A DNA stretch of 64,000 bases, from assembly GCA_002709915.1 (NCBI GenBank), contig PARF01000088.1, positions 1 through 64,000 of the forward strand, written 5' to 3'. Below the pieces are notes generated by a model that saw only the letters and a list, made by a program, of their open reading frames with translations, did no database searches and was not told the DNA's origin. The stretch comes from Roseibacillus sp. Its GTDB lineage: Bacteria > Verrucomicrobiota > Verrucomicrobiia > Verrucomicrobiales > Akkermansiaceae. This document shows, piece by piece, positions 9,372-58,084 of the stretch. Positions within the stretch are counted from its first letter, which is position 1, and each line of letters opens with the position of its first letter. Made by a program: the position numbers and the translations under genes.

Positions 9372-9413
9372 GTCGTATGGGGTTTGTCGTCTGGGTAGAT
9401 TTTTTCTCAGAAA

Positions 9414-9462: not shown

Positions 9463-9525
9463 TCCTCCCTGGAGCCTCCAGCACAAAATTACTACTCCGA
9501 GTAGCTGGAAGATGGCGTTAATACC

Positions 9526-10011: not shown

Positions 10012-10032
10012 GGAATCAGTTCTCCTTGTATG

Positions 10033-10503: not shown

Positions 10504-10551
10504 AGGTCGTGCTGATTAAGGGGCCAGAAAAGGAAGCAGCGCCGTCGTTAT

Positions 10552-11340: not shown

Positions 11341-11582
11341 GGTTGGTTCCGGGTTCTTGACGCGCGTCTTTGATGCTTGAAGCGCGGCGTGAGATTCTCC
11401 AAGGAGATGGGGGCGAGTAAAGGCTGGTTTTGAAAAATCTGCTGCCCCAAAAGGGGAGGATGCTAACTTAGGCTACGAATATCCGTTTATCCCTTAACAA
11501 AAGGGTCAAAGAGGAATGACCTGCCAGCTTCGGAAGCCCTCTCTCCCGGTATATTTTACGACATCGAATGGTTCATAGGCGT

Positions 11583-12236: not shown

Positions 12237-12257
12237 GTCATCGAGAGAGAGCCCGCC

Positions 12258-12986: not shown

Positions 12987-13161
12987 GAAAACAGGCAGGG
13001 GGGCTTGATTGTCAATAAAACCAAGTGAGTGCTCGGCCGCATTTTTTAGTCTAACAAGCCCTCTCCCACAACACTTTATTCACAAAACTGTTCGCGTAAA
13101 GGATCACTCTTGGGAAAAGCGTGAACTCCAACTTGCCTTCTGAAAGATTGGCTCCCTTGAG

Positions 13162-14064: not shown

Positions 14065-14204
14065 GCGGCAGAAAGTTTCACGATACAGAAGTAAAATTTC
14101 TTGTACGAATCAAGGTGGATCCGTCGTTTCATCTTTGAGGCGGCTGACATCCTTTGCCAGCCCCGACCCTTTCTACTCTTCTTTGCGGTCTATAGAAAAG
14201 GTCC

Positions 14205-14239
14205 AGCCCCGCCGGATCGGTCTCCGGCGGGGCTTTTTT
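14205..14239 (+). terminator. Intrinsic terminator
   Basis: Perfect 12-bp stem AGCCCCGCCGGA / TCCGGCGGGGCT followed by TTTTT. Confidence 0.92.
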
Positions 14240-14351
14240 GTGTAACCCGGAATAACTGACGACTCAGTAGATCCTGCTGCAAATCCATTAAGCTTGTTTC
14301 CCGTAGTGCTGTTCTTTGACAATTGGCTCTTCGAATTCCAAGCTACCGCTG

Positions 14352-16451
14352 ATGGCCGATCATCCTTTCCTCGCTGAGAATTTCCACATTCCGTGGTCGC
14401 AACTGATCCCCGAAAAGGTGGAGGTCGATATAGAAGCTGGCATCCTTGAGGCTCAGCAGCGCATCGATGAAATCTGCTCCGTTCCTCAGGAGCAGTTAAC
14501 CTATGACAATACTTTTGCTGCTCTTGAAGCAGCCACCGAATCCCTCTCTCGTGGCTGGGGCAGGCTTAACCATCTCTCTTCTGTCCGAGACAACGAAACC
14601 CAGCGAAGCGCGCTGAACAAGATGCTTCCAAAGGTCACGGCCTTCCACGCCTCAATTCCCCTCAACGCTGAATTGTGGGCAACCTTGAAGTCTTTTGCGG
14701 AGTCCGATTCTGTCAAGAATCTCGACCCCGTATCAAAGCGTTTCGTTGAGGAAACCTGTGCAGAATTTCGCGACGCCGGGGCAGATTTACCTGCGGACAA
14801 AAAAGCGCGCATGGCCCAGTTGCAGAGTGAATTAGCTAAGGCCACAAAGAAGTTCGGAGAAAACGTCTTGGACTCCGTAAAAGAATGGGAACTCATTGTT
14901 GAAGACGAGACCCTGCTGGCAGGGCTGCCGGAGAGCAGCCGAGCGTCTGCCCGTGCGGATGCGGAGGCTAAGGGACTCGGTTCGCCAGAGGCTCCCTGCT
15001 GGCGTTTCAACATGCAATTTCCCTCCTTCTATCCAGTACTCCAATACGCAGATAGCGAAAAGCTGCGTAAGATGGTCTTTGAGGGAAGGGGTTCCATCGG
15101 GCGCAACGGCAAGTTCGATAATTCAACTCTCATCTGGGAAATAGTCCGGCTCCGCCAAGAAAAGGCAGAGCTGCTGGGATTCGCAAATTTCGCCGACCTC
15201 AATTTACAGCGCAGCATGGTTGGTAATGGCGCCAAGGCACTTGGTTTTGTTGAAGACCTCCATGCGCGCATCGTCGATGCGTTCCGCACGGAATGCCACC
15301 AGCTCGAAAGCTACAAGGCCCGCAAAACCGGTGGAGAACCGGCCCGTCTGGAGCCCTGGGAAGTATCCTACTGGGCAGAGAAACAGCGCAAGGAACAGTA
15401 TAATTTTGATGACGAAGACCTGCGCCCCTACTTCCAGGTCGACAACGTCATGAAGGGCCTGTTCGGTCTGACGAGCCGGCTCTTTGGAATAACAATCACG
15501 TCTCGCCAGAGTATCTTCCTGGAACCGGGGGATTCACCGTCCGAGGAAAAGGTCGAGGTATGGCACCCTGAGGTCAGCTTTTACGACTTGCATGATACGG
15601 AATCAGGCGAGCTCCTTGGCTCTTTCTATGCCGACTGGCATCCCCGGGAATCGAAACGCAGCGGAGCATGGATGAATTACCTCGAGACCGGGCTGCCCGG
15701 GACCGCAGACAATGAACGCAAACCGCATCTCGGGCTGATCACTGGCAACCTCACCAAGCCCATAGGCGATCAACCTGCTCTGCTCACCCACAGCGAAGTA
15801 GAAACGATTTTCCATGAATTTGGCCATCTTCTTCACCAGCTCCTCAGTGATGTTCCGGTGAAAAGCCTTTCCGGGGTAAATGTCCCGCGTGACTGGGTCG
15901 AGTTGCCTTCACAAATCATGGAGAACTTCTGCTGGGACCGGGACTCTCTCAACTTCTTTGCCCGACACCACGAAACCGCCGAGCCCATTCCCGAGGAGCT
16001 GTTTGAAAAAATGATCGCCGCCCGAAACTACCTGAGTGCCTCTGCCACCATGCGTCAGCTGGCACTGGGTAAGCTTGACCTCGAACTGCATACTCAGCCT
16101 TCCGCGTATCTCGATCGCGATCTAGACGAGGTCGACCACGAAATACTGGAGGACTACAAGGCCGTTCTGGGCTCGCCTACCCCAACCATCGCTCGCCAGT
16201 TTAACCATCTTTTCGATAGCCCCGGAGGATACGCCGCAGGCTACTACTCCTACAAATGGTCAGAGGTTCTCGACGCAGACGCGTTCACTCGCTTCAGGGT
16301 CGAGGGCGTGCTGAACCCTGACACCGGGCGGGCATTTCGAGATCATATCCTGAGTACGGGCAATTCACGCCCTGTGGACGAACTCTACCGTGAGTTCATG
16401 GGCCGGGACCCGGAGTTACAGCCACTGCTCGAGCGCAATGGATTAGCTTAA
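14352..16451 (+). CDS. M3 family metallopeptidase (oligopeptidase A-like)
   Basis: TIFHEFGHLLHQLLS zinc motif; PGGYAAGYYSYKWSEVLDADAF; ORF opens at 14316. Confidence 0.95.
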   Translation: MADHPFLAENFHIPWSQLIPEKVEVDIEAGILEAQQRIDEICSVPQEQLTYDNTFAALEAATESLSRGWGRLNHLSSVRDNETQRSALNKMLPKVTAFHASIPLNAELWATLKSFAESDSVKNLDPVSKRFVEETCAEFRDAGADLPADKKARMAQLQSELAKATKKFGENVLDSVKEWELIVEDETLLAGLPESSRASARADAEAKGLGSPEAPCWRFNMQFPSFYPVLQYADSEKLRKMVFEGRGSIGRNGKFDNSTLIWEIVRLRQEKAELLGFANFADLNLQRSMVGNGAKALGFVEDLHARIVDAFRTECHQLESYKARKTGGEPARLEPWEVSYWAEKQRKEQYNFDDEDLRPYFQVDNVMKGLFGLTSRLFGITITSRQSIFLEPGDSPSEEKVEVWHPEVSFYDLHDTESGELLGSFYADWHPRESKRSGAWMNYLETGLPGTADNERKPHLGLITGNLTKPIGDQPALLTHSEVETIFHEFGHLLHQLLSDVPVKSLSGVNVPRDWVELPSQIMENFCWDRDSLNFFARHHETAEPIPEELFEKMIAARNYLSASATMRQLALGKLDLELHTQPSAYLDRDLDEVDHEILEDYKAVLGSPTPTIARQFNHLFDSPGGYAAGYYSYKWSEVLDADAFTRFRVEGVLNPDTGRAFRDHILSTGNSRPVDELYREFMGRDPELQPLLERNGLA

Positions 16452-42127: not shown

Positions 42128-45100
42128 TCACGCCCCGATCCCAGAAGTTCTGCGGTAGGAAACCAGATAGCCAATAAAGGCCCAAAAGAGACTATTGGCG
42201 CCAATAAGGATTACCATCGCTCCCAAGCCATAAAGCGTTTCTACCGGCGGTGGGCCGGAGAATACCGGCAGGATCGCTATACATGATGCCGCCAGGCCCA
42301 CCGCAAGAGCCCAGCCGATAAATGACCTCACCTCCTTGAAAATAATCCGCCGTATCACTCTGTGTGCGACTCCGATAATATTGAGAACGGCAAACTCATT
42401 GTGCCGCTCGGCAAGATTGCGGGCGGTCACGATCCCGAGTCCTGTACTGCCCAGAATGAGGCCGAGGCCTCCCAGAACATGGAAGATGGAAATGTAGGTG
42501 TTCTGCACGCTGTTAAAGCCTTCGAGCCTTTCCTGTGTAAGAGTCACCGCGCCTCCGCGATCCGCAGTGGCTTTCTGCAGCGTTTCCAGAGCCTGCGCGG
42601 GGTCCCCTGAGGCGTCGGCTAGAAACAAGCGATACCCTTCCTGCGAAGGAAATAGCCTCAGAAAGGCCGCTTCATCTACTATCATATTCCCTTGAAAAAC
42701 GCTGTCGGCTAAGGATCCCACAATCTGCACCTCGAAATCCTTTCCTCGTTCATCTTGGTAAGTGATCCGGTCTCCCACTTTCTTTTTCAAAACCCACATC
42801 ATTGTTGTCTCATCAACAAAGGCAGGAAGTATTCTTGGCTCAGAATGTTGCCCCAGGAGCTTCCAGCCATCCTCCTTATCGGCCCCTTCGGCAACCGTCC
42901 TGATGGTGAAGGCCCCTCGCGCAGCCAAAGCGCTAGTGTCGGTTGCAATAAGCCGGGGACGGGCCGCCGTATTCAAATTAAAGCAACTTGCATCGTCCCC
43001 AACTCCCACCCGGAAAGGGTGAATAGTGCCAAGAATATTCCGCAGATCCCCGAGCTCAAAGTAATCCGGATCCTTCTTGGCATCAGCTGCTCGATTAATC
43101 GGGCTAGTGGTTTCGATCCATAGGCCAAATCCTCCGGCACCACTATCTTTTTCCACCCATTCTGCTCCAACGTGCTTTCTCGTGGCTGTAACAGCTATAA
43201 CGAGGAAGATCCCGCAAGCCATTGTTCCAACAACCACCAGACTGCGCGCTGGGCGGCGCACTCCGTTCAGGGTCGCCATCGCTTGAATAGACATCCGGGG
43301 ATATCTTTTTTTCGCTATGCGCTCTAACCGCACCCGGTAGGCCAGCAGCCCTGCAACGAGAAGAAACATTCCGGAGAGGAAAAAGGCCGCCTGGGCCCCA
43401 ATCGGCTCTCTTCCAAGAAGACATCCTGCGGCGGCAAGAACACAAAAAGTCGCTACAGACACAAGCCGCCATACAGGCCGGCGCCCCCGAACTTCCTCAG
43501 ATCCCGCTTCCAGCCGCATCGTGGCACTCCTCCGCGCCTGCTTCCGCATGGAATACCAGATCGCAGTCATCGCCAGAAAAATGAAACTACATAATCCGGC
43601 AGAAACACTATTGAGGTTTAGATGAAGGATGAAAAATTTGCCACTGCTCCCGTCACTCCATATCGTTTCCAGAAAACGAAGGATCCATGTCGAGTAGGTG
43701 ATCGCAAGTGCCAGCCCCACGGCCCCACTGACAAAAACAATCACGAATCCTTCCATCAGCCGCCATCGGAGAACCCTTCTCGGGGAAACACCCACCGCAG
43801 CAAGCAGCCCGCTCTCCCTGTTGCGCTGCTCGACGTTGAACCGAAAGAGCATCGCGGTCAGAGCAATCGAAGCGACAATCAAGAAAACGCTCATACTTAG
43901 GAAGAGACTTGCGATATCAACAGGAGATTTTGCTGCTGCCCTTGCTTCCTCTCCCAGATTTCGCAGGAGTAAGCCGGCCATCTCTGGCCTGAGGAGTGGT
44001 AGTAATTCGCTCTCCAGATCGCTGTTGGAGATCTCTGAAGTCGGGACGCGGAGCGCAGTAAAGTCTCCCCACCTGTTACCGAATAACTCTTTGCCCTTCT
44101 CTTCGGAAATAAACGCCTTTGGCGTTCCCCGGTAGGCGTCCCAGTAGTCCTCGTCCTTCTGCCGGATCCTGCCAAGGTCCAGAGGTAAGCCCGGAGCCCA
44201 GTCCTGTGCGTCCTCTGCCTCAGCCACACCCGGAAAATCCGGCATCCAAAGCTGATCTGCCGCAAGCCCTTCAAGTTTGATGCTCTGTCGCACCCGAAAA
44301 CTCGCCGTGGATTCTTCCAGCTGATTGCCCCGAACCAATTTAAAGAAGGACAAGCTTAGTTCCTGCCCCGGTTTCAGGTCGAGGTCTTCCGCCAACCACT
44401 CGTTGACCACGATGTCCTGCCCATTCATATCTTCGGGGAGGAAAGGGGCTCCCTCAGCCCGTAGTGCTGCCACCATGGAATAGGGAGTCTCCTTCCCGTT
44501 TGCCGAGTAGGTGTTAATGAGGTAACTGGTTACCGGCACCATCGCTGGGAATCGCTCCCGCACCACCCGGACAATCGGGTCCTCGAAGAAAATGCGGCTC
44601 GACCGAATCTCCGAAGCCCTTGCGAGAGGGACATCCACGAGGGAAAGCCCGTAGTCCTCAAGAGCCATCCGCCCTCTGATGCGGCTGACCAAATCTTCAC
44701 TATCCCAGGCTCCGCTCTCTGCAGAAGAGAGAAGAAGGAGGTTGGCCCGACCTTCTTGCTCGACCACCTGCTGTAATCGGCTGAGAGGCACGAAGATTGT
44801 GGGCACAGGCAGCTGAGTAGCCTGGAGATTGAATCGACCGAACTGGCTCGGTTCCACCACCTTCCGCACCTTCGCCCGAAAGCTAATGACGTCCTCCGCC
44901 TCGCCAGAGAGTGGAGCATCGCGAGAGAGCATTCCTGGCTCCTGCAGACGAAGAATAACTGAGTCTCCTTCCCCGAGATCCAAGGACTTCGCCAAATAGC
45001 TGTTTACGCCTAGTTCCCGAGACTCAAGGGCAACCGACTTATCTCCCTCTGGTGCAAAGGACCAGAAACGCTCATCGACTCCAAGGATCTGGACGCTGCC

Positions 45101-45406
45101 CTGCGTTCTTCCGCTTTTCGAGGCGCTGAGCTGGCCTCGGAGCAGAAGAACTGGCGCGGCCCGAAGTGCGTCGGTCTCAACATCATCTGCCAGAGCGTCC
45201 CGGAAAAACCCCTCCCCGGCCGCAAACACATGCCCTACCTGGCCGACACGCTGGCCCGCGACCTGACGGAGAGTTTCCTTCACGGAATCCCCGGCAATGA
45301 GGGCTCCGAGCAATACCGTCGCGCCCAGAACCGCGCCAGCACCTACCCCAAGATAGGACAACTTGTAATGCCAGATCCCGCGCCGGATGAACTTGAGCGC
45401 ATTCAT
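42128..45406 (-). CDS. ABC transporter permease, FtsX/MacB type (1092 aa)
   Basis: Two FtsX-like segments, including ESGLLAAVGVSPRRVLRWRLMEGF and NEFAVLNIIGVAHRVIRRIIFKE; overlaps upstream ATPase gene. Confidence 0.9.
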   Translation of the reverse strand: MNALKFIRRGIWHYKLSYLGVGAGAVLGATVLLGALIAGDSVKETLRQVAGQRVGQVGHVFAAGEGFFRDALADDVETDALRAAPVLLLRGQLSASKSGRTQGSVQILGVDERFWSFAPEGDKSVALESRELGVNSYLAKSLDLGEGDSVILRLQEPGMLSRDAPLSGEAEDVISFRAKVRKVVEPSQFGRFNLQATQLPVPTIFVPLSRLQQVVEQEGRANLLLLSSAESGAWDSEDLVSRIRGRMALEDYGLSLVDVPLARASEIRSSRIFFEDPIVRVVRERFPAMVPVTSYLINTYSANGKETPYSMVAALRAEGAPFLPEDMNGQDIVVNEWLAEDLDLKPGQELSLSFFKLVRGNQLEESTASFRVRQSIKLEGLAADQLWMPDFPGVAEAEDAQDWAPGLPLDLGRIRQKDEDYWDAYRGTPKAFISEEKGKELFGNRWGDFTALRVPTSEISNSDLESELLPLLRPEMAGLLLRNLGEEARAAAKSPVDIASLFLSMSVFLIVASIALTAMLFRFNVEQRNRESGLLAAVGVSPRRVLRWRLMEGFVIVFVSGAVGLALAITYSTWILRFLETIWSDGSSGKFFILHLNLNSVSAGLCSFIFLAMTAIWYSMRKQARRSATMRLEAGSEEVRGRRPVWRLVSVATFCVLAAAGCLLGREPIGAQAAFFLSGMFLLVAGLLAYRVRLERIAKKRYPRMSIQAMATLNGVRRPARSLVVVGTMACGIFLVIAVTATRKHVGAEWVEKDSGAGGFGLWIETTSPINRAADAKKDPDYFELGDLRNILGTIHPFRVGVGDDASCFNLNTAARPRLIATDTSALAARGAFTIRTVAEGADKEDGWKLLGQHSEPRILPAFVDETTMMWVLKKKVGDRITYQDERGKDFEVQIVGSLADSVFQGNMIVDEAAFLRLFPSQEGYRLFLADASGDPAQALETLQKATADRGGAVTLTQERLEGFNSVQNTYISIFHVLGGLGLILGSTGLGIVTARNLAERHNEFAVLNIIGVAHRVIRRIIFKEVRSFIGWALAVGLAASCIAILPVFSGPPPVETLYGLGAMVILIGANSLFWAFIGYLVSYRRTSGIGA

Positions 45407-46077
45407 TGCTTCTCCAATTGGCCCCCACGAAGTTCAAAGTGACTTCCCATCCTTCGGGCAAGATTACTATTGTGGGTAACAACGACCAGCGTCACTCCCA
45501 TCTCAGAATTCAGCCGCCCCAAAAGTTCCGCGACCACTTCTGTGGTCTCAAGATCCAGTGAGCCCGTAGGTTCATCCGCAAGAATCAACTTCGGCTTGTT
45601 GACGAGTGCCCGCGCAAGAGCAGCACGCAATCGTTCACCACCAGAGAGCTGGTGAGGAAAATGAGTGAGACGATCCTGCAGACCCACATTTTCTAGTAGA
45701 ATCTCCGCCCTTGTCGCGGTCTCTGACTCTGCTTCCTCCCAACCACCGGCAAGTCGAGGAAGCACAACATTTTCCAGAAGCGTACACTGCGGCAGCAGAT
45801 GATGGTGCTGGAAGACAAACCCCAGCGAGCGGTTCCGGAAGGTCGCGGCCTCTTCTGCGTCGAAGGATGACAGATCGTTGCCATCAATAAGTATCTGGCC
45901 CCCGCTTGGTTGGTCCAATGCGCCCAAAAGGTTCAGCAAAGTTGTTTTCCCACTCCCGGAAGGACCAACGACGGCAGCTGTCTTTCCCGATTCTACCTGA
46001 AACTCAATGCCCGTGAGGACGCGAACTGCCTCCTCTGGCATCTCATACACCTTGCTTACATTCTGAACGTCTATCAT
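45403..46077 (-). CDS. ABC transporter ATP-binding protein, LolD/MacB type
   Basis: GPSGSGKTTLLNLLGALDQPSGG; LSGGERLRAALARALVNKPKLILADEPTGSLD; ATGA overlap with ligase stop. Confidence 0.95.
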   Translation of the reverse strand: MIDVQNVSKVYEMPEEAVRVLTGIEFQVESGKTAAVVGPSGSGKTTLLNLLGALDQPSGGQILIDGNDLSSFDAEEAATFRNRSLGFVFQHHHLLPQCTLLENVVLPRLAGGWEEAESETATRAEILLENVGLQDRLTHFPHQLSGGERLRAALARALVNKPKLILADEPTGSLDLETTEVVAELLGRLNSEMGVTLVVVTHNSNLARRMGSHFELRGGQLEKQ

Positions 46078-47300
46078 TGCCGGATCACTTTCCACCGCTT
46101 GGCCTTTACTTCGTGACTAGGCAGTTCACCTGAGCCAACCGTTTTTACAGGAATTCTCATGGAAAAAACAGCACGGAGACGGGCCTCAAGTTCGCTCTCC
46201 GCCAATTCCCCCTCGAGAACCTCTATCGTGAGACTGACCTCGGGTAACGCGCCACGCTCATCAACCTCTACCATGTATTCGCCGATCCCATCCACCGCCC
46301 GCACAACCGCATCTATTGCGCTGGGATAGAGGTTGACTCCCCGAACCACTACCATGTCATCTGTTCTTCCAATAATGCCACCATGGAAACCAAGCGTGCC
46401 TGGCAGCTCCCCCTCGACGGTTACCGGGCGAACCAGGTCTCCCGTGCGGTATCGAACAAGTGGTGATCCATAACGCCCAAGAGTTGTTAATACCAGCTCT
46501 CCGACCTCTCCCGGAGCAACATGAGATCCTCTACCGACCTCGACGACCTCCGCATAATAGGCGTTAGGCGAAATTCGGAGGACCTCCGGGTTTTCCGGAT
46601 CGGTAACCGTTACCGGACCCGTCTCTGTCATCCCATGATGATCTACAACTCGAGCGTTCCACTCACCCTCAATCCGCGTCCGTACCTCCGGAATACTTCC
46701 CCCCGGCTCGCCACATACGACTAACGCCTCTACACCGAATCCCCCCACCGGGAGGGACATTTCCTTGCCGACGTTCGCAAGATGAAGAGCGTAGGTGGGT
46801 GTACACGCAATGAACTTCGGGCGATGACACTCGATCATTCGGAGGCGGTTCTCACTTGAAAGTCCTCCTCCCGGTATTGCCCGAATACCCATCTCTGTGG
46901 CGGCCTCAAAAGCAGACCAGAACCCAATGAAAGGGCCGAAAGAAAAGGGGAAAAAGCCACTATCCCCGGGAGCAGCCCCAGCCTGACTCCACACCCACTG
47001 CCACGATTTCAGGACCCAGTTCCAGCCCGCAGGATCATCCAGCCACACCAAAGGATTTCCCCGCGTTCCACTCGTCTGGTGAAACCGCGTGTAGTGTTCC
47101 AGCGGATAAGTAAGGTTCGATCCGTAGGGTGAATGCGCCTCGTGATCGGCCGCTAGCTCATCCTTTGTGGTGAACGGCACCCGGGTCCTGAACTCCTCGA
47201 GACTCTCTACGCCACGAAGACCCCCAAGCTTCACTGCGTAAAACGCATTGGCGGGCAGGATAGCTTCAAACAGATCGTTGATGGCGCTGAGGGGCATCAT
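46074..47300 (-). CDS. Phenylacetate-CoA ligase-like AMP-dependent ligase
   Basis: HQTSGTRGNPLVWLDD; VDHHGMTETGPV; VRYRTGDLV; GRTDDMVVVRGVNLYPSAID. Confidence 0.92.
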   Translation of the reverse strand: MMPLSAINDLFEAILPANAFYAVKLGGLRGVESLEEFRTRVPFTTKDELAADHEAHSPYGSNLTYPLEHYTRFHQTSGTRGNPLVWLDDPAGWNWVLKSWQWVWSQAGAAPGDSGFFPFSFGPFIGFWSAFEAATEMGIRAIPGGGLSSENRLRMIECHRPKFIACTPTYALHLANVGKEMSLPVGGFGVEALVVCGEPGGSIPEVRTRIEGEWNARVVDHHGMTETGPVTVTDPENPEVLRISPNAYYAEVVEVGRGSHVAPGEVGELVLTTLGRYGSPLVRYRTGDLVRPVTVEGELPGTLGFHGGIIGRTDDMVVVRGVNLYPSAIDAVVRAVDGIGEYMVEVDERGALPEVSLTIEVLEGELAESELEARLRAVFSMRIPVKTVGSGELPSHEVKAKRWKVIRQ

Positions 47301-47339: not shown

Positions 47340-47924
47340 CTATTGCTTCTCCTGAGACTCCACTGCCGTCTTTACCGGGGGAGCCCCATGAGATCCGGCA
47401 GGCTTGAACTTCACTACCATGAAGCCTCCTAAAGCCGCCATAAGGATCCCGCAGAAAAATTGCCAAGGAACCGCCGCGAGTCCACCTTCTGGACGGTCCA
47501 TGCATATGGAAACAACCGCATTCACCAGCGGAGCTCCGCAGAAAATAATCGACATCACCGAGATCGCCACCACCGCTGGACTCATCCCCCCTTTTGCTCC
47601 CGAAGCCATCGCAAGAAGAACGCAAAAAGCGCCGATCGCACCAAGAATCCCGGCAAATAGCGAAAGCCACATCCCCTTGCCTGGCATGGACCAGTCTGCT
47701 CCCTTGACGAGTAGAACCACCAGGGGCGCCATCACTGCTGTTATAAAGTACGCCAGCCCGACGAAGAGGAAGGCCTTGTAACGGCCAAGAACCTTGTCCT
47801 GCATTTCAACTTGTCCAGCATGAAGGAAAATACCGTAGAGGCCCCAGCAGGCCACGGTCATAAGAGCAAAAATGAGCCAGTTCATGGATTTCTTTTTCGG
47901 GGATGTGGGAAGGGGATTGCTCAC
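47340..47924 (-). CDS. Multi-TM membrane protein (EamA/DMT-like)
   Basis: About 5 hydrophobic segments; embedded in the collinear operon. Confidence 0.6.
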   Translation of the reverse strand: MSNPLPTSPKKKSMNWLIFALMTVACWGLYGIFLHAGQVEMQDKVLGRYKAFLFVGLAYFITAVMAPLVVLLVKGADWSMPGKGMWLSLFAGILGAIGAFCVLLAMASGAKGGMSPAVVAISVMSIIFCGAPLVNAVVSICMDRPEGGLAAVPWQFFCGILMAALGGFMVVKFKPAGSHGAPPVKTAVESQEKQ

Positions 47925-47932
47925 GTGAGGTA

Positions 47933-48382
47933 TCAGGACTTGGCTGCAGCTGCGGCTGCTTTGAGGTCATTTCGAATCGGTTCAGGAATCGGAACTGCGG
48001 AAATTTCTCCGTCTTTGAATTGGACGCAGGCAACTGCCACCTTTCCAGTTGCAATGGGATCATCCTCAGGGTCGAGGTAGAAGCGAAAACTGTAGCGAAC
48101 TGACCTTGTTCGAATTTCCTCGATAGTGACACGAATCTGCAGAACATCATCGTTGCGTGCCGGTTTTCGGAATTCACAACTGGCACTCACTCGCGGCCAT
48201 CCGATGCCCTGCTCAGCTTTTCGTCCGTGAACCGGGTGCCCTAAGCTCCGCATGAAAGCATGCTCAGCGGACTCCATATACCGGTAAAAGTTGGAGAAGT
48301 GCACGATGCCAGCAAGGTCTGTCTCATGGAACTCAACCCGCCGACTATGCTCATAGCAGTAACTGTTGCAGTCTTCCCTCAT
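47933..48382 (-). CDS. Hotdog-fold acyl-CoA thioesterase (4-hydroxybenzoyl-CoA thioesterase-like)
   Basis: RRVEFHETDLAGIVHFSNFYRYMESAEHAFMRSLG. Confidence 0.9.
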   Translation of the reverse strand: MREDCNSYCYEHSRRVEFHETDLAGIVHFSNFYRYMESAEHAFMRSLGHPVHGRKAEQGIGWPRVSASCEFRKPARNDDVLQIRVTIEEIRTRSVRYSFRFYLDPEDDPIATGKVAVACVQFKDGEISAVPIPEPIRNDLKAAAAAAKS

Positions 48383-49692
48383 AGCTTGCGGGGTACCGTC
48401 TTTGCACAGGCCCTCTCAGCAAGCTTGAGAAAACCATTCTTCATGACCTCAACACTATAATGTTGCTCCACTCCGCGGCGACCTCTTTTTCCCATCTCTG
48501 CCGCTTCGGCAGGGTCGGCTAGAAGTTCATCCCAGGCAGAAGCGAGTAGCCGGGGATCCCCGGGAGGAACTGTTTTGCCTCCACCTGTGATCAGCGCGAT
48601 CTCCTCGAAGGTCGAGCCCCCGGGATTCACTACCGGAACTCCACTCGCCATGGCCTCAATGAGACAGAGCCCGAAGGCTTCGGAATAACGCATCGGAGCC
48701 GAAAAGATTGTAAGACTCCCAAGAAAGCGGGCTTTCTCTTCTCGACTTACATTGGGCTCCCAGTCGACAAGGTGGCTAAGGCCCGCCTCCTCTATTTTTT
48801 CCTTCTGTTTCTGTACGAATGGCTCGTCTCCGAGAGGACACGACCCCGCGATCTTGAGCCGGCATGAAGGAAAGTTTCCTATCTCCTGAAACAGGAGATA
48901 GGCGTCCACCATATCCCCCAAGCCTTTATCCTGACTCATCCGCGACAAGAATCCAATCGCTTCAGGTCCATCCGTGGGACACTTCCCATAGCCCTCAAGG
49001 TTGATCCCATTGGGAAGTACTTCTATTTTGTCAGCTGGGAGGTCGAGGCGCTTAGACATGACCTCAGCGTAGAACCGGCTTGGGGCAATCAGCATCTCGC
49101 ACTCCGGAAGCCGCTCCTGCATTTCTTCCCAACACCCTTTCCGATATGGTTCAGGTAGAGTATCCAAAAAAGTGTCTTCTCCCTGGAAGAACGCTATCAC
49201 TGGAATATCACCAAGGTGCTTCTTTAGCTCTCTGGTCATTCCTGCAAAAAGCGCGGTCGAGAGGGCGATACATTCTGGTTGCTCATGGACCGCGAGCCAT
49301 TCGATCAGCTTTTCGAGCTCCTTTGTCAGACCGCTTTTCTCCAGCTGGAGCATGGATAAACACATCTCTCCCTGTTTTCTGGGGCTGGTCATATGGCTTC
49401 GGCTCGCTGCCTTTCGGAGCAACCCTGCACCATTCAATAGTGCGTCAAACCACCGCGGTGTATGCCTGAAGAAAGGAAATTTGCTCTGCAGATAGACGTT
49501 AATACCCCCGAAGAATATAGGAGCGTTCCCTACCTGCGGCGGACTTTCCTCATCCAGCTGCATCGGCAGATACATCGGCAGTAAAGCAACCTCGTGCCCA
49601 TTTCGATGCAGGGCCGTAACGAGGGTGTTGTCGCGCATGCATGCCCCGCAGTGGTAACTGCCTGTTCCCGCTGTCAGAAAGGTGACTTTCAT
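48379..49692 (-). CDS. Glycosyltransferase family 4-like
   Basis: C-terminal GFLSRMSQDKGLGDMVDAY and YSEAFGLCLIEAMASGVPVVNPGGSTFEEI. Confidence 0.9.
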   Translation of the reverse strand: MKVTFLTAGTGSYHCGACMRDNTLVTALHRNGHEVALLPMYLPMQLDEESPPQVGNAPIFFGGINVYLQSKFPFFRHTPRWFDALLNGAGLLRKAASRSHMTSPRKQGEMCLSMLQLEKSGLTKELEKLIEWLAVHEQPECIALSTALFAGMTRELKKHLGDIPVIAFFQGEDTFLDTLPEPYRKGCWEEMQERLPECEMLIAPSRFYAEVMSKRLDLPADKIEVLPNGINLEGYGKCPTDGPEAIGFLSRMSQDKGLGDMVDAYLLFQEIGNFPSCRLKIAGSCPLGDEPFVQKQKEKIEEAGLSHLVDWEPNVSREEKARFLGSLTIFSAPMRYSEAFGLCLIEAMASGVPVVNPGGSTFEEIALITGGGKTVPPGDPRLLASAWDELLADPAEAAEMGKRGRRGVEQHYSVEVMKNGFLKLAERACAKTVPRKL

Positions 49693-49713: not shown

Positions 49714-50985
49714 TTACGTTACTGCTTGGGGAACCCGCCCGTGGGCGAGGGGCTCTGGAACCGAGGCTAATTCGCCTATAGCTTCCGCCAGAGGTGTATA
49801 GTCTTTTCCGTCAAGATCGCCAATCAAACAGTCAGTGAGCATAGGCCGGATTTCCTCGTGCCTTTTTATCAGTTCTCCAAAACTGAAGTTTTCATCGTAA
49901 AACGCATAAACCAGTTTCCGCATTACCTCAATCATGCCGCAAAGATCCTCCCCGTAATTCGAAAATTGCCCAGCAGAGACGTCTCCCTGTTCCAAAGCTT
50001 TGCCAATTGCGTCAGCTGCCATTTCCCCGCTTTTCAAGGCAAGGAAAACCCCTGATGAGAAGACCGGATCGAGAAAGGCAAAGGCGTCGCCCGCCATGAC
50101 CAGCCCATCGGAAGCGCAATGCTCCCCCCGGTAGGAGTATTCCCCAGTGACCCAGTACTCGCCAAACTGCTCACCCTCTCCGAGATGCTCCTTTATCCAG
50201 CTATTTTTTTCAATTTCACGCTCGTAGATTACCTTCGGGTCTCTGCTGTCGCGGTAGAGGTAATCTCTCTCAGCGACTATGCCGGAGCTAACGATATTGT
50301 TGCGTAGAGGAATGTTCCAAAACCAGCCTCGACCGTCGACATAGGCTACCGTAGTCGCCCCTTCGTCCAGGCCCTCATCACGCTTCGCGTTCTTGTAGAG
50401 AGTCCAGATCGCTATCTTGTTGAGCTTCGGATCCCGTTTTCTCCAACTCTTCTTCCTCAGGAACAAGGCATCGCGCCCAGTGCAGTCAAGAGTCAGCGGT
50501 GCTTCTAGAGTGTATTCCTGTCCGTCTTTCCCCTTCGCGGTGACGCCAACTACACGATCTCCTTCATAGTTGAAACCGCGCACTTCTGTTTCCTCACGAA
50601 CATCGACTCCCTTGGCCTCCGCATTCCGCAACAACATGTTGTCAAAGACAGACCGTTCAACTTGCCATGTCGTAGCGGCCGGGTGATCAAAGTGTTGAAA
50701 AAAGTAAAAGGGATCGGAGATTTTGCCATCTTTGGAGACAAACTGCACGCTGTGCTTCTTCACGAAGGCCTGCTTTTCCATTTCCTCCAGAACTCCCAGT
50801 CTTTTCAGAGTGAAATAGCAGAAGGGCATGAGGGACTCGCCGACGTGATATCGGGGAAACTTTTCTTTCTCCAGCAAGATGACCCGATGGCCTTTTTCCG
50901 CAAGAAGGGCGGATGCAGTAGATCCACAGGGACCTCCTCCGATGACAATTACGTCGCAGGGCTGTTTATCAACGGAAATATTCAT
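49714..50985 (-). CDS. Flavin-dependent halogenase-like oxidoreductase
   Basis: VIVIGGGPCGSTASALLAEKGHRVILLEKEKFPRYHVGESLMP; GRGWFWNIPL fits WxWxIP; GLVMAGDAFAFLDPVFSSGVFLAL. Confidence 0.87.
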   Translation of the reverse strand: MNISVDKQPCDVIVIGGGPCGSTASALLAEKGHRVILLEKEKFPRYHVGESLMPFCYFTLKRLGVLEEMEKQAFVKKHSVQFVSKDGKISDPFYFFQHFDHPAATTWQVERSVFDNMLLRNAEAKGVDVREETEVRGFNYEGDRVVGVTAKGKDGQEYTLEAPLTLDCTGRDALFLRKKSWRKRDPKLNKIAIWTLYKNAKRDEGLDEGATTVAYVDGRGWFWNIPLRNNIVSSGIVAERDYLYRDSRDPKVIYEREIEKNSWIKEHLGEGEQFGEYWVTGEYSYRGEHCASDGLVMAGDAFAFLDPVFSSGVFLALKSGEMAADAIGKALEQGDVSAGQFSNYGEDLCGMIEVMRKLVYAFYDENFSFGELIKRHEEIRPMLTDCLIGDLDGKDYTPLAEAIGELASVPEPLAHGRVPQAVT

Positions 50986-51536
50986 GGGTGGTGAAAATCA
51001 GGAATTATTTCGAGAATTCGGGCCAGACAGGCATCTTTTTGGCATTTCAGTTGGTTGTAACGACCAAAAAACAATCTTGCACAACCCAATGGGGATAATT
51101 TCGGCGGTAAGGCCTCGCGCGCAACCGAAAAATACCCCAGAGGCTGGCTTTTGTAGGCAACCCCGTTCTGGTTAAGGATCCCCCCCAAAGGCTGCTCACC
51201 CCGTAAAATCAATTTCTGAAGAGCTTGGGAAAAATTATCCAATTCAATTTCAATCACCCCGAATTCAGCAGCGCGCCCTGTTCCCTCTCCCTTAAGAATG
51301 ACCTCTCTGTAGTAGCATTCATCGGAATGTCCCTCAGCGAGAACCTCAAGAAGCATCCGCTCCCTATGAAACCGCTCCAGCGTTGACGTCATATCGCCCT
51401 CATGCACAAGGAGCGCCCGAAAAGGCTCTGGTATTTCCTCGGAAGAACGCCAGATGAACACCTCCGGGCTTAGCCCGGCACGCGCGAGGGCCTTGCTCAG
51501 AAAACCTTCAGAGGATGAATGCTCGTTTGGATTCAA
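50982..51536 (-). CDS. Chorismate lyase-like (UbiC/DUF98 family) protein
   Basis: RALLVHEGDMTSTLERFH; AEFGVIEIELDNF; LRGEQPLGGILNQNGV; ARLFFGRYNQL; ARILEIIP. Confidence 0.72.
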   Translation of the reverse strand: MNPNEHSSSEGFLSKALARAGLSPEVFIWRSSEEIPEPFRALLVHEGDMTSTLERFHRERMLLEVLAEGHSDECYYREVILKGEGTGRAAEFGVIEIELDNFSQALQKLILRGEQPLGGILNQNGVAYKSQPLGYFSVAREALPPKLSPLGCARLFFGRYNQLKCQKDACLARILEIIPDFHHP

Positions 51537-51617: not shown

Positions 51618-52943
51618 TCAAACGATTCGATCCGTTTTGTGATGCTCGAGGAAAAAGTCGTGAAGTAGATTATCCACACAAAGCAGTCCATCTCGGCTCA
51701 GGACGATCGCATCATCGATCACCTCGAGAAGTCCCTCCTCAGTGAGCTCCTCCAGAGGACGGGCAAAACGATCAAGAATACTAATCTGGAATTTATCGCG
51801 GAAGTAGTCTGCCTTCACGTGCCCCAACTTCATCTGTAGGATAAACTCTCGTATCATGCGCTCCTCTTCATTCGTTCGAAACGCGCGCTTTACTGGCATC
51901 TTCTCTGTATCAATCGCAGCCACGTAATCGTCTATCTCGGTCAGGTTCTGGTAATGGACTCCCTGCACATGGGAAAACGAGGCCACCCCAAGCCCAACAA
52001 GATCTGCACCTCCCCACAAGGAGTCCCGATAGATAAATTTTGTTCTCTCAGGGTTCTTTACCGCCGTATACCCGGAACTGATCGTGTAGCCATTAGCTTC
52101 CAGCTCTGCAAATGCCTCCCTCACCCAGCGCCTCTTGGTTTCCCATCCCGCCACGGGGGCCACGAGGGCCCCACTCTCTTTCATATCCTTGTAGATGGTC
52201 GTATTATAGGGGATTTCCATCTGGTAGATGGTGATGCTGTCAGGAGCAAGTTTGAGCACCTGCTCAATGTTCTTCTGCCAGTTCTCCTCCGTCTCCTCCA
52301 GCATTCCCGCAATAAGGTCGATATTGATCTGGTCGAACCCTTCGGCCCTGGCCCGCTCGAAGGCCTTCCAAACCTCCTTGCTCCGGTGTGCGCGACCGTT
52401 GATCTCGAGGATCCGATCATCAAAGTTCTCAATGCCGAGACTCAGGCGAGTCACTCCGATCTCCTTGATCGCGGCCAGCTTTCCAGCGGTCAAAGTCCCG
52501 GGCTCACATTCGAAGGCAACCTCCTCTGCATCGTCCCATGAGAGGATGGCCTTCATTCGGTCGGTCAGGTCTGTCAACTGCCTGCCGGAAAGATACGAAG
52601 GGGTTCCTCCTCCGAAGTAAATAAAGTGCGGCTTGCGACCCGCGACCAGCGGCTTTGCTGCCAGCCTCTCTAACTCGGTAATGGTATGGTCCAAATAATC
52701 TCGGATCTCCTGCCCATTTTTGTCCGTATAGACACGAAAGTAGCAGAAGTGGCAGCGCCTGCGACAGAAGGGAATATGGTGATATAGTCCGAGTGGTGTC
52801 CCAGGAATGGGGTCTCGGTCATACGCCGCCCGCACTTCCTCCCCCTGGTCGCTGGACCAGAAGGAAAAGGGAGGGTAATTGGAAATAAAGTAGTTGCCCG
52901 CCCGGGTGGCCTTCTTAGTCGGAGGAGTGGCGGTTTCGCTCAT
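51618..52943 (-). CDS. HemN/HemW-like radical SAM protein
   Basis: HIPFCRRRCHFCYF (CX3CX2C); IYFGGGTPSYL; INIDLIAGMLEETEENW. Confidence 0.92.
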   Translation of the reverse strand: MSETATPPTKKATRAGNYFISNYPPFSFWSSDQGEEVRAAYDRDPIPGTPLGLYHHIPFCRRRCHFCYFRVYTDKNGQEIRDYLDHTITELERLAAKPLVAGRKPHFIYFGGGTPSYLSGRQLTDLTDRMKAILSWDDAEEVAFECEPGTLTAGKLAAIKEIGVTRLSLGIENFDDRILEINGRAHRSKEVWKAFERARAEGFDQINIDLIAGMLEETEENWQKNIEQVLKLAPDSITIYQMEIPYNTTIYKDMKESGALVAPVAGWETKRRWVREAFAELEANGYTISSGYTAVKNPERTKFIYRDSLWGGADLVGLGVASFSHVQGVHYQNLTEIDDYVAAIDTEKMPVKRAFRTNEEERMIREFILQMKLGHVKADYFRDKFQISILDRFARPLEELTEEGLLEVIDDAIVLSRDGLLCVDNLLHDFFLEHHKTDRIV

Positions 52944-53160: not shown

Positions 53161-54324
53161 TCAATGCGCTCCAATGCAAAACAGCGTCCCATCTGAGCCA
53201 CCTACCACGATTCTACCATTAGCAAATGCAAGATCGGAACTGATCCCCTCTCCCAGATCCACCCTCCAGATTTCTTTCCCGTCAACCGGATCGACTGCAT
53301 AAACTCTTCCGTCTCCAGATCCAAAAGCCACCGCATCCTTGAAGACGATCGCTCCGCCATCGATCCGGGAGCCGGTTTTGAATCGCCATGCTCTCTTGCC
53401 GCTCTCCCGGTCCACCGCATGGAGGTGCTTGTCACGAGAGCCGATAAACACATGTTTTGCGGTAACCGCAGGGGCCGCGTAAAACCCGAAGTCCTTATCT
53501 TCGTAAACCCACTTTGGGTCCTTTTTCGAAATGTCTACCGCAACTAGTTGGTTACCATAATTTGCAGAGTATACCATACTACCCATCGTCGCCACCGTGC
53601 CAATGATCTCCGCCTCCACCTCAACTTCATTGACGGCCTCTCCATTACTGACGTCAATCACATGCACCCTCGCATCGCAGCCACCAAGGACGATATTCTT
53701 CCCGTTCACCAAAGCCGGAGTTCCGTTGATCTGCTCCGCCGTTTCATATGTCCACGCTTCCGTGCCATCTTTCGTGCGCAGCGCCCGGCAGATCCCATCG
53801 TAACCGTTGACGACAATCCATGTCTCCTTCTCGTCCGGGCTCTGGATCAGTAAGCCACCACCCACGAACTTATCTGCAGCTTCGTATTTCCACAGCTCCT
53901 TACCTGTCTTCTGATCAAAGCAATAGAGGTAACGATCGCTCGACCCAATAAAGACCCGGCCGCCGCCCACAGTTGGTGGAGCCTCAATGGTGTCCTCCGT
54001 CTCAGCCTTCCAGCGCACCTTGCCGGTCCGCTCATCCACCGAGTAAAAAGTTCCCATTACCGTCCCTACAAAAACTGCTCCATCCGCAATTGCCGCATCA
54101 CCTACAATCGGGCCGTCAAGCACGGCATCCCAGCTAACTACCGGCTTGCGAGGAACATTGTCCGGAACACTGCCTTGTAAGGCGTTTCCTCCACGTGGAA
54201 TGGCCCAAGACTTTGTCTCTGCTTCTGCGTTTTCTTTCTCGGGGGCAGCGAGGCTAATCCCTGCCACAAGGAGAACATACGCTACGCTGACTGCCAAAAA
54301 ATTCGGGTAGGAGTAATTCATCAC
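53161..54324 (-). CDS. Secreted PQQ-like beta-propeller protein
   Basis: Repeated propeller blades (VDERTGKVRWKAETED, FDQKTGKELWKYEAAD, VDRESGKRAWRFKTGS); signal peptide. Confidence 0.93.
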   Translation of the reverse strand: MMNYSYPNFLAVSVAYVLLVAGISLAAPEKENAEAETKSWAIPRGGNALQGSVPDNVPRKPVVSWDAVLDGPIVGDAAIADGAVFVGTVMGTFYSVDERTGKVRWKAETEDTIEAPPTVGGGRVFIGSSDRYLYCFDQKTGKELWKYEAADKFVGGGLLIQSPDEKETWIVVNGYDGICRALRTKDGTEAWTYETAEQINGTPALVNGKNIVLGGCDARVHVIDVSNGEAVNEVEVEAEIIGTVATMGSMVYSANYGNQLVAVDISKKDPKWVYEDKDFGFYAAPAVTAKHVFIGSRDKHLHAVDRESGKRAWRFKTGSRIDGGAIVFKDAVAFGSGDGRVYAVDPVDGKEIWRVDLGEGISSDLAFANGRIVVGGSDGTLFCIGAH

Positions 54325-55481
54325 GTATCTTGGGTTGCAGCGCCACCAAAGGCGCTCTGATATAATACCGCAAAATCATCTCTTTTCATACTCCGAGGAT
54401 TGAACTGTCCAGTCCACTGTCTCGTAGCATCCTCTGCAAGCTCAGGAAACACGCCAGGATCGACTCCGCACTGCGCCAGCGGCGAGAGATTCGCCACAGT
54501 GAGCAGATGCTCAATCCAAGCTCGAACGCCCCAGTCCACCCCTCGGCAGCTTGATAGCAAGGTTCCATAATGCGCATAGGTCTCGCTAGCTTCCGGGGCT
54601 TCCTCGTTCAGCCCGATCACGTGAGGAAGCATCAGAGCCACCGCGTGGCCGTGGGCCAGCCCACACGAGGCCGTGAGTGGATTCGCCGAAGCGTGAGCTG
54701 CTCCCAACATACTGTTTTCGATCGCGAGCCCCGCGAAGGCGGATCCCATTAACATCGCGTTACGCTCGGAAGCCGATGCTTCACCCTTCAGAACAGGCTC
54801 GATCGCCAGGGAAATGTGAAGAAATGCCTCCCTTGAATATGCAGAAGAAAAGGAATTCCTACGTGTGCTTACCGCCGTCTCCAACGAATGCGCAAGAGCA
54901 TCCAGCGCTGTCAGGACCGCTACCCTGTGAGGCATCGAGACGGTCAGGTCCGGATCAAGAATAGCGTAAGTTGCAAGCGCAGAAGGGTCCCCGCAGGCCA
55001 TCTTCTCGTGAGATTGATCACGACTGATTACCGCGTAACTCTGGCATTCACTTCCTGTTCCAGAAGTTGTCGGTACACCTATAAAGGGGAGAAGAGGTGT
55101 TCGCGCTGCACCGTATCCCTTATAATCGCTCATAGCCCCACCGTTGGTCAGAAGGAAATTGCAGCCTTTCGCAGTGTCCATGCTACTTCCCCCACCCAGT
55201 CCCACAAAGCAGTCCGGTCCTACCTCCCGGGCAAATCTCATCGCGGCAAGAATATCGCTCTCTGCAGGATTCTCGCTTGTCCCATCATAAACAGTGCAGG
55301 CTATTCCTGCATCTTCCAGTAAAGTAACCGCCCGACCGGCATGACCTGCGGCAGCCACCCCTTGGTCGGTCACGAGCAGCACTTTCTGTCCCCCACTCTT
55401 GTGGACGCACGACGGCAACTCGGCTAGAGATCCCGGTCCGCCCACAAGTTGCGGACTGGGTCTGGTTGTAAAGGGCTCCAT
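54321..55481 (-). CDS. Iron-containing alcohol dehydrogenase
   Basis: VGLGGGSSMDTAKG; PTTSGTGSE; DALAHSLE; GLAHGHAVALMLPHVI. Confidence 0.95.
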   Translation of the reverse strand: MEPFTTRPSPQLVGGPGSLAELPSCVHKSGGQKVLLVTDQGVAAAGHAGRAVTLLEDAGIACTVYDGTSENPAESDILAAMRFAREVGPDCFVGLGGGSSMDTAKGCNFLLTNGGAMSDYKGYGAARTPLLPFIGVPTTSGTGSECQSYAVISRDQSHEKMACGDPSALATYAILDPDLTVSMPHRVAVLTALDALAHSLETAVSTRRNSFSSAYSREAFLHISLAIEPVLKGEASASERNAMLMGSAFAGLAIENSMLGAAHASANPLTASCGLAHGHAVALMLPHVIGLNEEAPEASETYAHYGTLLSSCRGVDWGVRAWIEHLLTVANLSPLAQCGVDPGVFPELAEDATRQWTGQFNPRSMKRDDFAVLYQSAFGGAATQDT

Positions 55482-55487: not shown

Positions 55488-56933
55488 TCAGCTCACTGCG
55501 GCAAGGTTCCCCTGTATAGCACGCCGCCGGAACAGAAACTCGAACAAATTACCTTCATGTGGCTGCTCCCACTGAACACGGTTGGTTGGGAAAGGGCCGA
55601 TGTTGAGCCGCTCGATATCGGACGAATTCATGAGATCGCGGATCCAGCCCGCATCGTCCGTCCAAGCTGAAACAACCAGTGTCTCTCCAATCTCACCAAG
55701 CATCTGGCCTTGCGGCATTTCCGTCACACTGGCGAAGGGAAACATGAATTCCGTGTTTGCGAGAGGATGCCCCGGGTCCGCGCAGGAAATCAGAGTTGGC
55801 CGCAGATAGGTCTGACCGTGCATTTCCACGAGGCGAGATCCGTTCCGGTAACGCGCCGTAACATCTTCGGCCCCCTCCACCTTTAGGTGCTCGTCAATAA
55901 GATCATTTATCGATCCAGCCCATTCGGTGTTCGAAAATCCACAGAGAAGCGCATCCTCATGATCTCTGGGAAGAGGTTCGATAGCCGCAAGATCCCGTGC
56001 TACAGCATCGGCCAGTTCATCTCGCCCGGATGAGACAAGAATTGCAGACGTGTTAATACAGCTTCGGCCCCCATTGGCCGAGATGGATTCAACGAGGGTT
56101 TCGGTATGGTCGGCCCACTTGCCGAGATAATCATCCCCGACAAGAACCTTGCTCCTCCCAGTGCCATGGACTTGGATACTCGGAAAGCCCGAATACTTGC
56201 GCACCGTGGCGTCACTGCCAAAGGCGATGCCACGGCCACAGCCCATGAGAATCGTATCTCCGCCCTCATGAGTCGTGGGATAAAACCCGAAAGCCTCTTT
56301 GGGAAATCCTGCGGCAATCAGAGATTGCACGATTCGTAGCGGAGTGAAGGGGTCTTCCCGGCCCGGCTTCAAGAGGACCGGAATCTTCAGAACCGGCGCG
56401 GGTAGCCACAGCGAGTTCACGGCAGGAGCGTTGCTGGGAAGAGAAACCCCCAGGGCGTCGGCCACCGGATAGAAATTCACCTCAAGATCATCGACTGCTG
56501 AGAGTCCCCGATCAAAAAGCTCCAGCGGAAGATTCCGGGTCAATCCACCAATCACCGTGCGGATCTGCGACATCGCGGCGTGAACCTTTCCCATGTTCAT
56601 TTTCACCAGTGTGTGGGGAAGCTTTGTCAGCGCTGACAGAGACTCGATATAATCCTGCGGGCTCTGGCTGCTGTTACCAAGAGGCAACTCTTCGTGGAGG
56701 AAGAGTTCAGCGGCAGCTTCGCAATAGCCCGCGAGGGTCTCAGCAGGCACGGCATCAAGAGCAGCCTTTGACTTCTCAAGATCGAGAATATCCCGTCGTA
56801 TCAGGCCGGGATTCGCCGTGTGGGTATAAACCGTGCTGTCCGCCGATGATTCCAGCTCAACCGTATCGAGACTATGATATTCCTCGCCGAGGCGCAGGAT
56901 AGGGATATGCGTTTCCTTACTCATGATGTTCAA
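55488..56933 (-). CDS. Aldehyde dehydrogenase / acyl-CoA reductase family protein
   Basis: Active-site SANGGRSCINTSAILV; collinear with ALDH superfamily. Confidence 0.87.
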   Translation of the reverse strand: MNIMSKETHIPILRLGEEYHSLDTVELESSADSTVYTHTANPGLIRRDILDLEKSKAALDAVPAETLAGYCEAAAELFLHEELPLGNSSQSPQDYIESLSALTKLPHTLVKMNMGKVHAAMSQIRTVIGGLTRNLPLELFDRGLSAVDDLEVNFYPVADALGVSLPSNAPAVNSLWLPAPVLKIPVLLKPGREDPFTPLRIVQSLIAAGFPKEAFGFYPTTHEGGDTILMGCGRGIAFGSDATVRKYSGFPSIQVHGTGRSKVLVGDDYLGKWADHTETLVESISANGGRSCINTSAILVSSGRDELADAVARDLAAIEPLPRDHEDALLCGFSNTEWAGSINDLIDEHLKVEGAEDVTARYRNGSRLVEMHGQTYLRPTLISCADPGHPLANTEFMFPFASVTEMPQGQMLGEIGETLVVSAWTDDAGWIRDLMNSSDIERLNIGPFPTNRVQWEQPHEGNLFEFLFRRRAIQGNLAAVS

Positions 56934-57013: not shown

Positions 57014-58084
57014 CTAATAAACGCCTTCAATCACCTGCTTGGTCCCGCTTTGGAAGGGCCGGACATCTCCGACTCCATCCCACGGAAATTCCCCACAAGG
57101 CTCTCTTCGAATTGCCTCATCCCGCTCAAGAAAGCGAGGCACAAAGAACTCCTTGGTCATTGTGGTCAGTTCCACCCGCCCATATTCTCCATATTCCATA
57201 TTACGGGTCGAATCCTCCGGATCCACAATCCGCAGAACTGCACGGGGCTGGGGCGCATAGTAAGTCAGACTGTACTCTCCAGGCTCCCGCTTCCTGCTGA
57301 TCGCAAGGCCCATCAAGGTATTGCCGTAGGTTGGGGCATAATTAATCTGGCCCTCCAATACTTCCTCCTCGATGAAGCGAACGTATTGAGGAGTCATCGT
57401 TGTTCCACCGGCAAACACACCTTTAATCCCACCATCAACCAGAGACATCCGCTCAGCGAGGCTTTCGAGCAACTTTGGTGTCGTAAAGAGGCACTTGATG
57501 TCCCGGTGACGAATAATGGTGACGGCCTGATCAATGACGTGCTCCTGGTACTTTCGGGCCATCGAGTATTCTCCATCCGCAATCAGTCGTTTCACCCAGC
57601 GGGGATCAAGATCGATGAAAAAGCAGGCTCCTCCTCGGCGGTTCGCGAGGTGCTCGATCGAAAGTCGCAAGCGCCTCGGCCCAGTGGGTCCCACCATCAG
57701 CCAGTTCCCCCCTTGAGGAAAAAAATCGGAAGGGTAGTGGTCACTGAACTCCGAGTAATCGGTCTTGTAATCGTCCCAGCCAATCCGCTGCTTCGGCATT
57801 CCGGTTGTCCCTCCGGTTTCGAAGACATTGAAAGGCCTTCCTTCAAACGCCTTGGGGATAAACCGACTTGGATCCTCTTTTCGGAGAACCTCATCGTCAA
57901 AGTTTGGAAATTTCTGGATATCCGCGAAGCAGGTCACCTCCGTCAGCGGGTCGAATCCAAGACTGGGAGCCCGGTCCAGCCAGTAGGGACACCCTGTTTC
58001 GGGAGAAAAGTGCCATTGCATGCTTTCCCGTACGCGCTCATCCAGAGCCGCGCGGGCTTCTTCCACAGTCAAATCACAACTCAT
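57014..58084 (-). CDS. AMP-dependent ligase, LuxE / phenylacetate-CoA ligase-like
   Basis: VFETGGTTGMPKQRIGWDD nucleotide-binding motif; APTYGNTLMGLA; overall acyl-adenylating architecture. Confidence 0.82.
   Translation of the reverse strand: MSCDLTVEEARAALDERVRESMQWHFSPETGCPYWLDRAPSLGFDPLTEVTCFADIQKFPNFDDEVLRKEDPSRFIPKAFEGRPFNVFETGGTTGMPKQRIGWDDYKTDYSEFSDHYPSDFFPQGGNWLMVGPTGPRRLRLSIEHLANRRGGACFFIDLDPRWVKRLIADGEYSMARKYQEHVIDQAVTIIRHRDIKCLFTTPKLLESLAERMSLVDGGIKGVFAGGTTMTPQYVRFIEEEVLEGQINYAPTYGNTLMGLAISRKREPGEYSLTYYAPQPRAVLRIVDPEDSTRNMEYGEYGRVELTTMTKEFFVPRFLERDEAIRREPCGEFPWDGVGDVRPFQSGTKQVIEGVY

Follow-up and report, generated by a model that had tools for sequence, protein, structure and literature searches.

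A conserved, apparently undescribed operon in Roseibacillus and other bacteria encodes a divergent chorismate-lyase-fold protein and a halogenase-like flavoenzyme

Gene organization of the locus

The window analyzed is a stretch of 64,000 nucleotides from Roseibacillus sp. (contig PARF01000088.1 of assembly GCA_002709915.1, which comprises 3.63 Mb in 93 contigs), and its closest named relatives were Roseibacillus and Akkermansiaceae MAGs. Two genes of this window, one for an FAD-dependent halogenase-like enzyme (the flavoenzyme) and the other for a divergent chorismate-lyase-fold protein (the lyase-like protein), are listed with their neighbors in Table 1. The original prediction, made from the sequence of the window, described these genes as a pair with a 4-bp overlap, and both open reading frames and the overlap were found exactly as claimed. 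In close relatives, the ends of matches to the two genes were 0–3 bp apart (i.e., abutting or nearly so), and in most relatives the genes were separated by approximately 10–100 bp. As judged from the 4-bp overlap, the pair may be translationally coupled.

Table 1. Features of the operon, listed in the direction of transcription
Feature	Position	Strand	Characteristics	Occurrence
Weak PaaK/LuxE-like adenylate-forming protein	57014..58084	-	Pfam AMP-binding 5.1e-5, below cut-off	Verrucomicrobia only
Divergent aldehyde-dehydrogenase-fold protein, acyl-CoA reductase-like	55488..56933	-	Pfam Aldedh 1.4e-10; PDB KauB 2.4e-9	
Iron-type alcohol dehydrogenase	54321..55481	-	Pfam Fe-ADH 2.6e-46	29/70 loci, including Acidobacteria and Planctomycetes
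BamB/PQQ-type beta-propeller protein	53161..54324	-	Pfam PQQ_2 5.2e-59	37/70 loci
HemN-like radical SAM enzyme, CxxxCxxC	51618..52943	-	Pfam Radical_SAM 1.8e-25, HemN_C	63/70 loci
Divergent chorismate-lyase-fold protein	50982..51536	-	184 aa, start TTG	
Overlap of lyase-like and FAD genes	50982..50985	-	4 bp, ATGA, read from sequence	
FAD-dependent halogenase-like enzyme	49714..50985	-	423 aa, start ATG	
GT4 glycosyltransferase	48379..49692	-	Pfam Glycos_transf_1 2.6e-20	52/70 loci
4HBT-fold acyl-CoA thioesterase	47933..48382	-	Pfam 4HBT_2 9.1e-14	49/70 loci
Small multi-pass membrane protein	47340..47924	-	EamA/DMT-like by eye, no Pfam match	38/70 loci
PaaK-type aryl/acyl-CoA ligase	46074..47300	-	NCBIfam PaaK models 153–157 bits, below cut-off	39/70 loci
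ABC transporter ATPase	45403..46095	-	Pfam ABC_tran 2.4e-35	Operon conserved
FtsX-type ABC permease	42128..45406	-	Pfam FtsX 2.4e-13	Operon conserved

The pair was seen to lie within a larger cross-phylum operon with genes for a radical SAM enzyme, a CoA ligase and a thioesterase, which had escaped the original prediction. This operon extends from position 58084 to position 42128 with all genes on the minus strand, and neither a flavin reductase nor a carrier protein was found within it. No gene accompanied the lyase-like gene more constantly than that for the HemN-like radical SAM enzyme; the cysteine motif of this enzyme was kept in 74/74 sequences where the region was covered, and scores below every NCBIfam equivalog cut-off make it look like an unnamed family. 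Likely catalytic residues were also retained in other members of the operon, including the catalytic-type Asp of the thioesterase (D22, 57/57 sequences) and the active-site-type Cys292 of the aldehyde-dehydrogenase-fold protein (30/30), the gene for which was confined to Verrucomicrobia loci.

Conservation and co-occurrence of the gene pair

The FAD gene was adjacent to the lyase-like gene and on the same strand in 61 of 70 loci that were collected with the lyase profile alone. These loci were from Verrucomicrobia, Planctomycetes, Acidobacteria and Armatimonadetes, as assigned by record titles, which are loose in some cases. Control genes taken from elsewhere in the window were absent from the 70 loci except for the operon's own neighbor, which occurred in 7. 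A core consisting of the radical SAM, lyase-like, FAD, thioesterase and ligase genes was retained in the planctomycete, acidobacterial and armatimonad loci, and in some families the operon was split into modules (i.e., radical SAM-lyase, FAD, and thioesterase-membrane protein-ligase).

Association of the two genes was also evident from their distribution in 289 genomes of the order (Verrucomicrobiales), among which orthologs were called at a threshold of 1e-100 that divides two clear score groups. Counted without regard to shared ancestry, both genes were present in 158 genomes, only the lyase-like gene in 7, only the FAD gene in 7 and neither in 117. Thus, presence or absence was concordant in 275/289 genomes, often while the genes were unlinked, and many of the 14 discordant genomes were fragmentary assemblies. 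Among the good-quality genomes of the order, the putative pathway was present in 113 of 225 or approximately half. In 15 further genomes, the lyase-like gene was found in 10, and the same 10 carried a close FAD ortholog that was linked in only 2. The possibility that the FAD gene is an optional tailoring gene, as Opitutae-type loci without a local copy might suggest, was dropped because 7 of 9 genomes that lacked the gene at the lyase locus held an ortholog elsewhere. An ortholog of the PaaK-type ligase was found in 8/8 genomes with both genes as opposed to 0/5 others, so that the ligase accompanies the pair even where it is unlinked, and distances between lyase-like proteins were correlated with those between flavoenzymes (r = 0.87); none of these figures takes shared ancestry into account.

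Adjacency in 61/70 loci and strong co-occurrence of unlinked genes already contradict the notion that these genes are neighbors by chance, which we regard as virtually excluded. These findings indicate that the two genes belong to a conserved cross-phylum pathway, which is apparently undescribed; a literature search of partial coverage revealed no described cluster that combines a lyase, a halogenase and a radical SAM enzyme.

Other arrangements were noted at individual loci. In three acidobacterial loci (L111, L112 and L113), the lyase-like gene directly preceded the PaaK-type ligase gene and no radical SAM gene was nearby. In three loci of one family (L159–L161), the PaaK ortholog was located, by eye, behind short-chain dehydrogenase-like and ROK-kinase-like genes rather than behind the thioesterase gene. 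A lipoyl-ligase-family protein (Pfam LplA-B_cat 1.9e-15) was encoded after the radical SAM and lyase-like genes in one genome (L147, positions 8892–9614). In one genome of another family (L047, positions 8642–14614), the FAD ortholog was situated between two more halogenase-like paralogs, followed by a gene for a voltage-gated chloride channel (CLC, Pfam 4e-69) that would suit halide supply, although this is a single case.

Folds and residues of the two proteins

Of the evidence for the UbiC-like label given to the 184-aa protein in the original prediction, that from predicted fold and profile alignment was favorable, and that from family models was not. Thus, neither this protein nor any of 19 homologs matched a Pfam family, including PF04345 and PF01947 (0/20), NCBIfam provided no support for the label, a profile of the lyase-like alignment matched no PDB sequence, and two divergent homologs used as queries revealed nothing useful. 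In contrast, a Foldseek search with the AF2 model (pLDDT 89) gave the DUF98 protein AF1396 as the best match (2nwi, E 8.5e-8, TM 0.65–0.76), followed by UTRA effector domains of GntR regulators and E. coli UbiC (1fw9, E 2.5e-4), and alignment of 69 homologs with E. coli UbiC by hhalign gave E 4e-6. The source genome was found to encode no Pfam member of the UbiC or Rv2949c-like families, and an Rv2949c-like comparison set sought within the phylum yielded one genome only.

Substrate-binding residues, which the original prediction had proposed to check, were largely in place. In UbiC, 4-hydroxybenzoate is contacted by Met34, Arg76, Leu114 and Glu155 (PMC7879144). The first three of these (mature numbering) were paired by hhalign with M49, R77 and L117 of the lyase-like protein, which were conserved in 90/90, 90/90 and 86/90 loci, respectively. 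E176, conserved in 88/88 loci, was set one residue off Glu155; A172, I174 and E176 are invariant and alternate in a manner that fits one face of a strand, and E176 is a likely candidate for the fourth contact. The lyase-like protein, with its divergent chorismate-lyase fold, is thus predicted to make 4-hydroxybenzoate. In an alternative that we consider rather improbable, a protein with the chorismate-lyase/UTRA fold would have no lyase activity and would instead bind an aromatic ligand or serve as partner of the radical SAM enzyme. The UTRA matches and lack of Pfam membership are in keeping with such a role, as are the replacement of UbiC Arg91 seen in the hhalign alignment, the newly invariant Glu91 of the lyase-like family and the near-constant proximity of the radical SAM gene. 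Opposed to it are the kept UbiC ligand-contact residues, the best fold matches, which were to DUF98 and, among enzymes, to UbiC, and the CoA ligase and thioesterase of the pathway, which fit an aromatic acid.

The flavoenzyme scored above the family cut-off of Pfam Trp_halogenase (1.6e-31) and reached the cut-off of no NCBIfam halogenase equivalog model. The best NCBIfam model was CmlS, which scored 198 bits where 900 are required; this indicates that the protein is not a CmlS and leaves room for the wider halogenase family. Its neighbors among PDB sequences were CndH, FasV, CmlS, PltA, Bmp2, ChlB4 and Mpy16. A structure model built from 14 homologs (pLDDT 83) gave FasV, CndH, PltA and Bmp2 as top Foldseek matches, alignment with PltA extended through the C-terminal region of the latter, and in a small tree the orthologs formed a single clade, sister to PltA/ChlB4/Mpy16, within characterized halogenases.

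The sequence elements GGGPCGSTAS, GWFWNIP and FVKKHSVQF, which had been picked out in the original prediction, were all located in the protein, and at the level of sequence the halogenase call was borne out. Thus, the dinucleotide-binding GxGxxG is represented by invariant G16, G18 and G21, and K77 aligned with the catalytic Lys position of CmlS, CndH, FasV, PltA, ChlB4 and Mpy16. This Lys was kept in 83/83 orthologs from the collected loci, WxWxIP (WFWNIP, residues 221–226) in 80/80 and the FxxPxxSxG tunnel motif (FLDPVFSSG, residues 304–312) in 79/79; the functional meaning of these motifs has been discussed previously (PMC8407142, PMC12871659). WxWxIP and FxxPxxSxG were absent from E. coli UbiI, UbiH and FixC. 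Since a Lys of FixC falls on or close to the K77 position in the alignment, this residue alone is not diagnostic of a halogenase. Absence of the Lys, as in a geranylgeranyl-reductase clade, had been named beforehand as evidence against the call; the Lys was present and the geranylgeranyl-reductase model TIGR02032 scored 117 bits, below its cut-off of 158.8, which favors a halogenase. Judged by its sequence, the flavoenzyme carries every signature of the two-component flavin halogenases.

The main rival is that the flavoenzyme acts in the same pathway as an oxygenase or dehydrogenase on a halogenase-type scaffold, with ring hydroxylation, oxidative decarboxylation or desaturation as candidate reactions and an oxidized rather than halogenated product; we hold this to be a substantial possibility, although of less than even probability. 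The missed cut-offs of the halogenase-specific NCBIfam models are consistent with this rival, and NCBIfam models for QhpG, LodB and GG-reductase (maturases, monooxygenases and reductases) also scored the protein, which places these enzymes in the same superfamily. Likewise, Cytophaga 3nix, annotated as a "flavoprotein/dehydrogenase" of unverified function, was among the close Foldseek neighbors, so that the motifs may also occur in enzymes other than halogenases. A broad, near-obligate distribution would also suit a conserved redox step, and it would be unusual for a halogenated specialized metabolite to occur in approximately half of the order as sampled. Against this rival stand three halogenase signatures that are invariant across phyla, the nesting of the clade among characterized halogenases and the proposal that WxWxIP prevents monooxygenation (PMC8407142).

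Proposed pathway and comparison with known systems

We propose, at about an even chance, that the pair belongs to a conserved pathway to a small metabolite derived from 4-hydroxybenzoate, in which one gene product supplies the aromatic precursor and the other performs the halogenation. As suggested by fold and residues, the 184-aa protein would cleave chorismate to 4-hydroxybenzoate and pyruvate, and the PaaK-type ligase would then convert 4-hydroxybenzoate to a CoA thioester. The ring of this thioester would be halogenated by the 423-aa two-component flavin enzyme in the manner of PltA, ChlB4 and Bmp2, with FADH2 from a flavin reductase encoded elsewhere and HOX traveling down the tunnel to Lys77, and the 4HBT thioesterase would free the acid. 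We infer the thioester step from the ligase and thioesterase of the operon and from likeness to carrier-acting halogenases. For the HemN-like radical SAM enzyme, methylation or some other modification of the ring is the probable role, guessed, like the CoA substrate, from genomic context. The dehydrogenases may reduce the carboxyl group, the GT4 enzyme may glycosylate the product, and the membrane and ABC proteins may export it. The pathway is thus built of known kinds of enzymes while its chemistry is putative.

A more specific reading, which we offer only tentatively, is that a dispersed, co-inherited and near-primary pathway, present in about half of Verrucomicrobiales and in three other phyla, yields a conserved halogenated metabolite derived from 4-hydroxybenzoate, with a halogenase that acts on aryl-CoA. 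Its parts would be the radical SAM enzyme, the chorismate-lyase-fold protein, a variant-B-like halogenase, the CoA ligase and the thioesterase. Were this reading correct, these cells would contain a halogenated small molecule as a standard component, and the flavoenzyme would be the first CoA-thioester-acting aromatic halogenase of its clade.

The pathway, if real, would assign two unnamed protein families to aromatic metabolism in 113/225 good-quality genomes and in four phyla, and would predict a metabolite, undescribed and possibly halogenated, in bacteria that are abundant in soil, freshwater and marine habitats and whose chemistry has received little study. It would also provide candidate halogenases that may use CoA thioesters without carrier proteins and a candidate HemN-like radical SAM enzyme that acts on a chorismate-derived aromatic. 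Enzymes have not been assigned to the natural production of organohalogens in soils and sediments (PMC4926216).

The closest parallels to the flavoenzyme are the variant-B halogenases PltA, ChlB4, Mpy16 and Bmp2 as well as CndH and FasV, which have the same fold, GxGxxG, aligned Lys, WxWxIP and FxxPxxSxG. Identity to these proteins is approximately 26–32%, and the orthologs of the flavoenzyme form a separate clade with 50–95% internal identity. PltA, Bmp2, Mpy16 and ChlB4 halogenate carrier-bound acyl thioesters, whereas the present operon encodes a CoA ligase and a 4HBT thioesterase and no carrier protein.

The original prediction drew a parallel to the chorismate lyase Bmp6 and the flavin-dependent halogenase Bmp5, which form bromophenols in marine bacteria, and the pairing of activities, with 4-hydroxybenzoate as presumed precursor, is indeed the same (PMC7918430). 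The parallel does not extend further. Bmp5, which works by decarboxylative bromination (PMC7918430, PMC8407142, PMC12871659), is a single-component enzyme with neither WxWxIP nor FxxPxxSxG (PMC12871659, PMC8407142), whereas the flavoenzyme has both motifs and thus differs from the Bmp5 type. A Bmp-like route to halophenols by decarboxylative halogenation of free 4-hydroxybenzoate is therefore quite unlikely; such a route would need no ligase, thioesterase or carboxyl-reducing enzymes, and the operon has these in addition to the radical SAM enzyme. Description of the route as non-homologous was also not upheld in that the lyase-like protein shares the UbiC/DUF98 fold.

Compared with UbiC (PF04345) and the Rv2949c-like/DUF98 family (PF01947), the lyase-like protein shares the predicted fold, equivalents of Met34, Arg76 and Leu114 and a conserved C-terminal Glu. 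It differs in the lack of a Pfam match, in structural identity of approximately 15–19% and, with respect to UbiC, in the presence of invariant Glu91 and loss of Arg91. Similarly, the radical SAM enzyme has the Radical_SAM and HemN_C domains and the CxxxCxxC motif of HemN, HutW/ChuW and STM4012 but scores far below each equivalog cut-off, and its genomic partner, in contrast with theirs, is a chorismate-lyase-fold protein.
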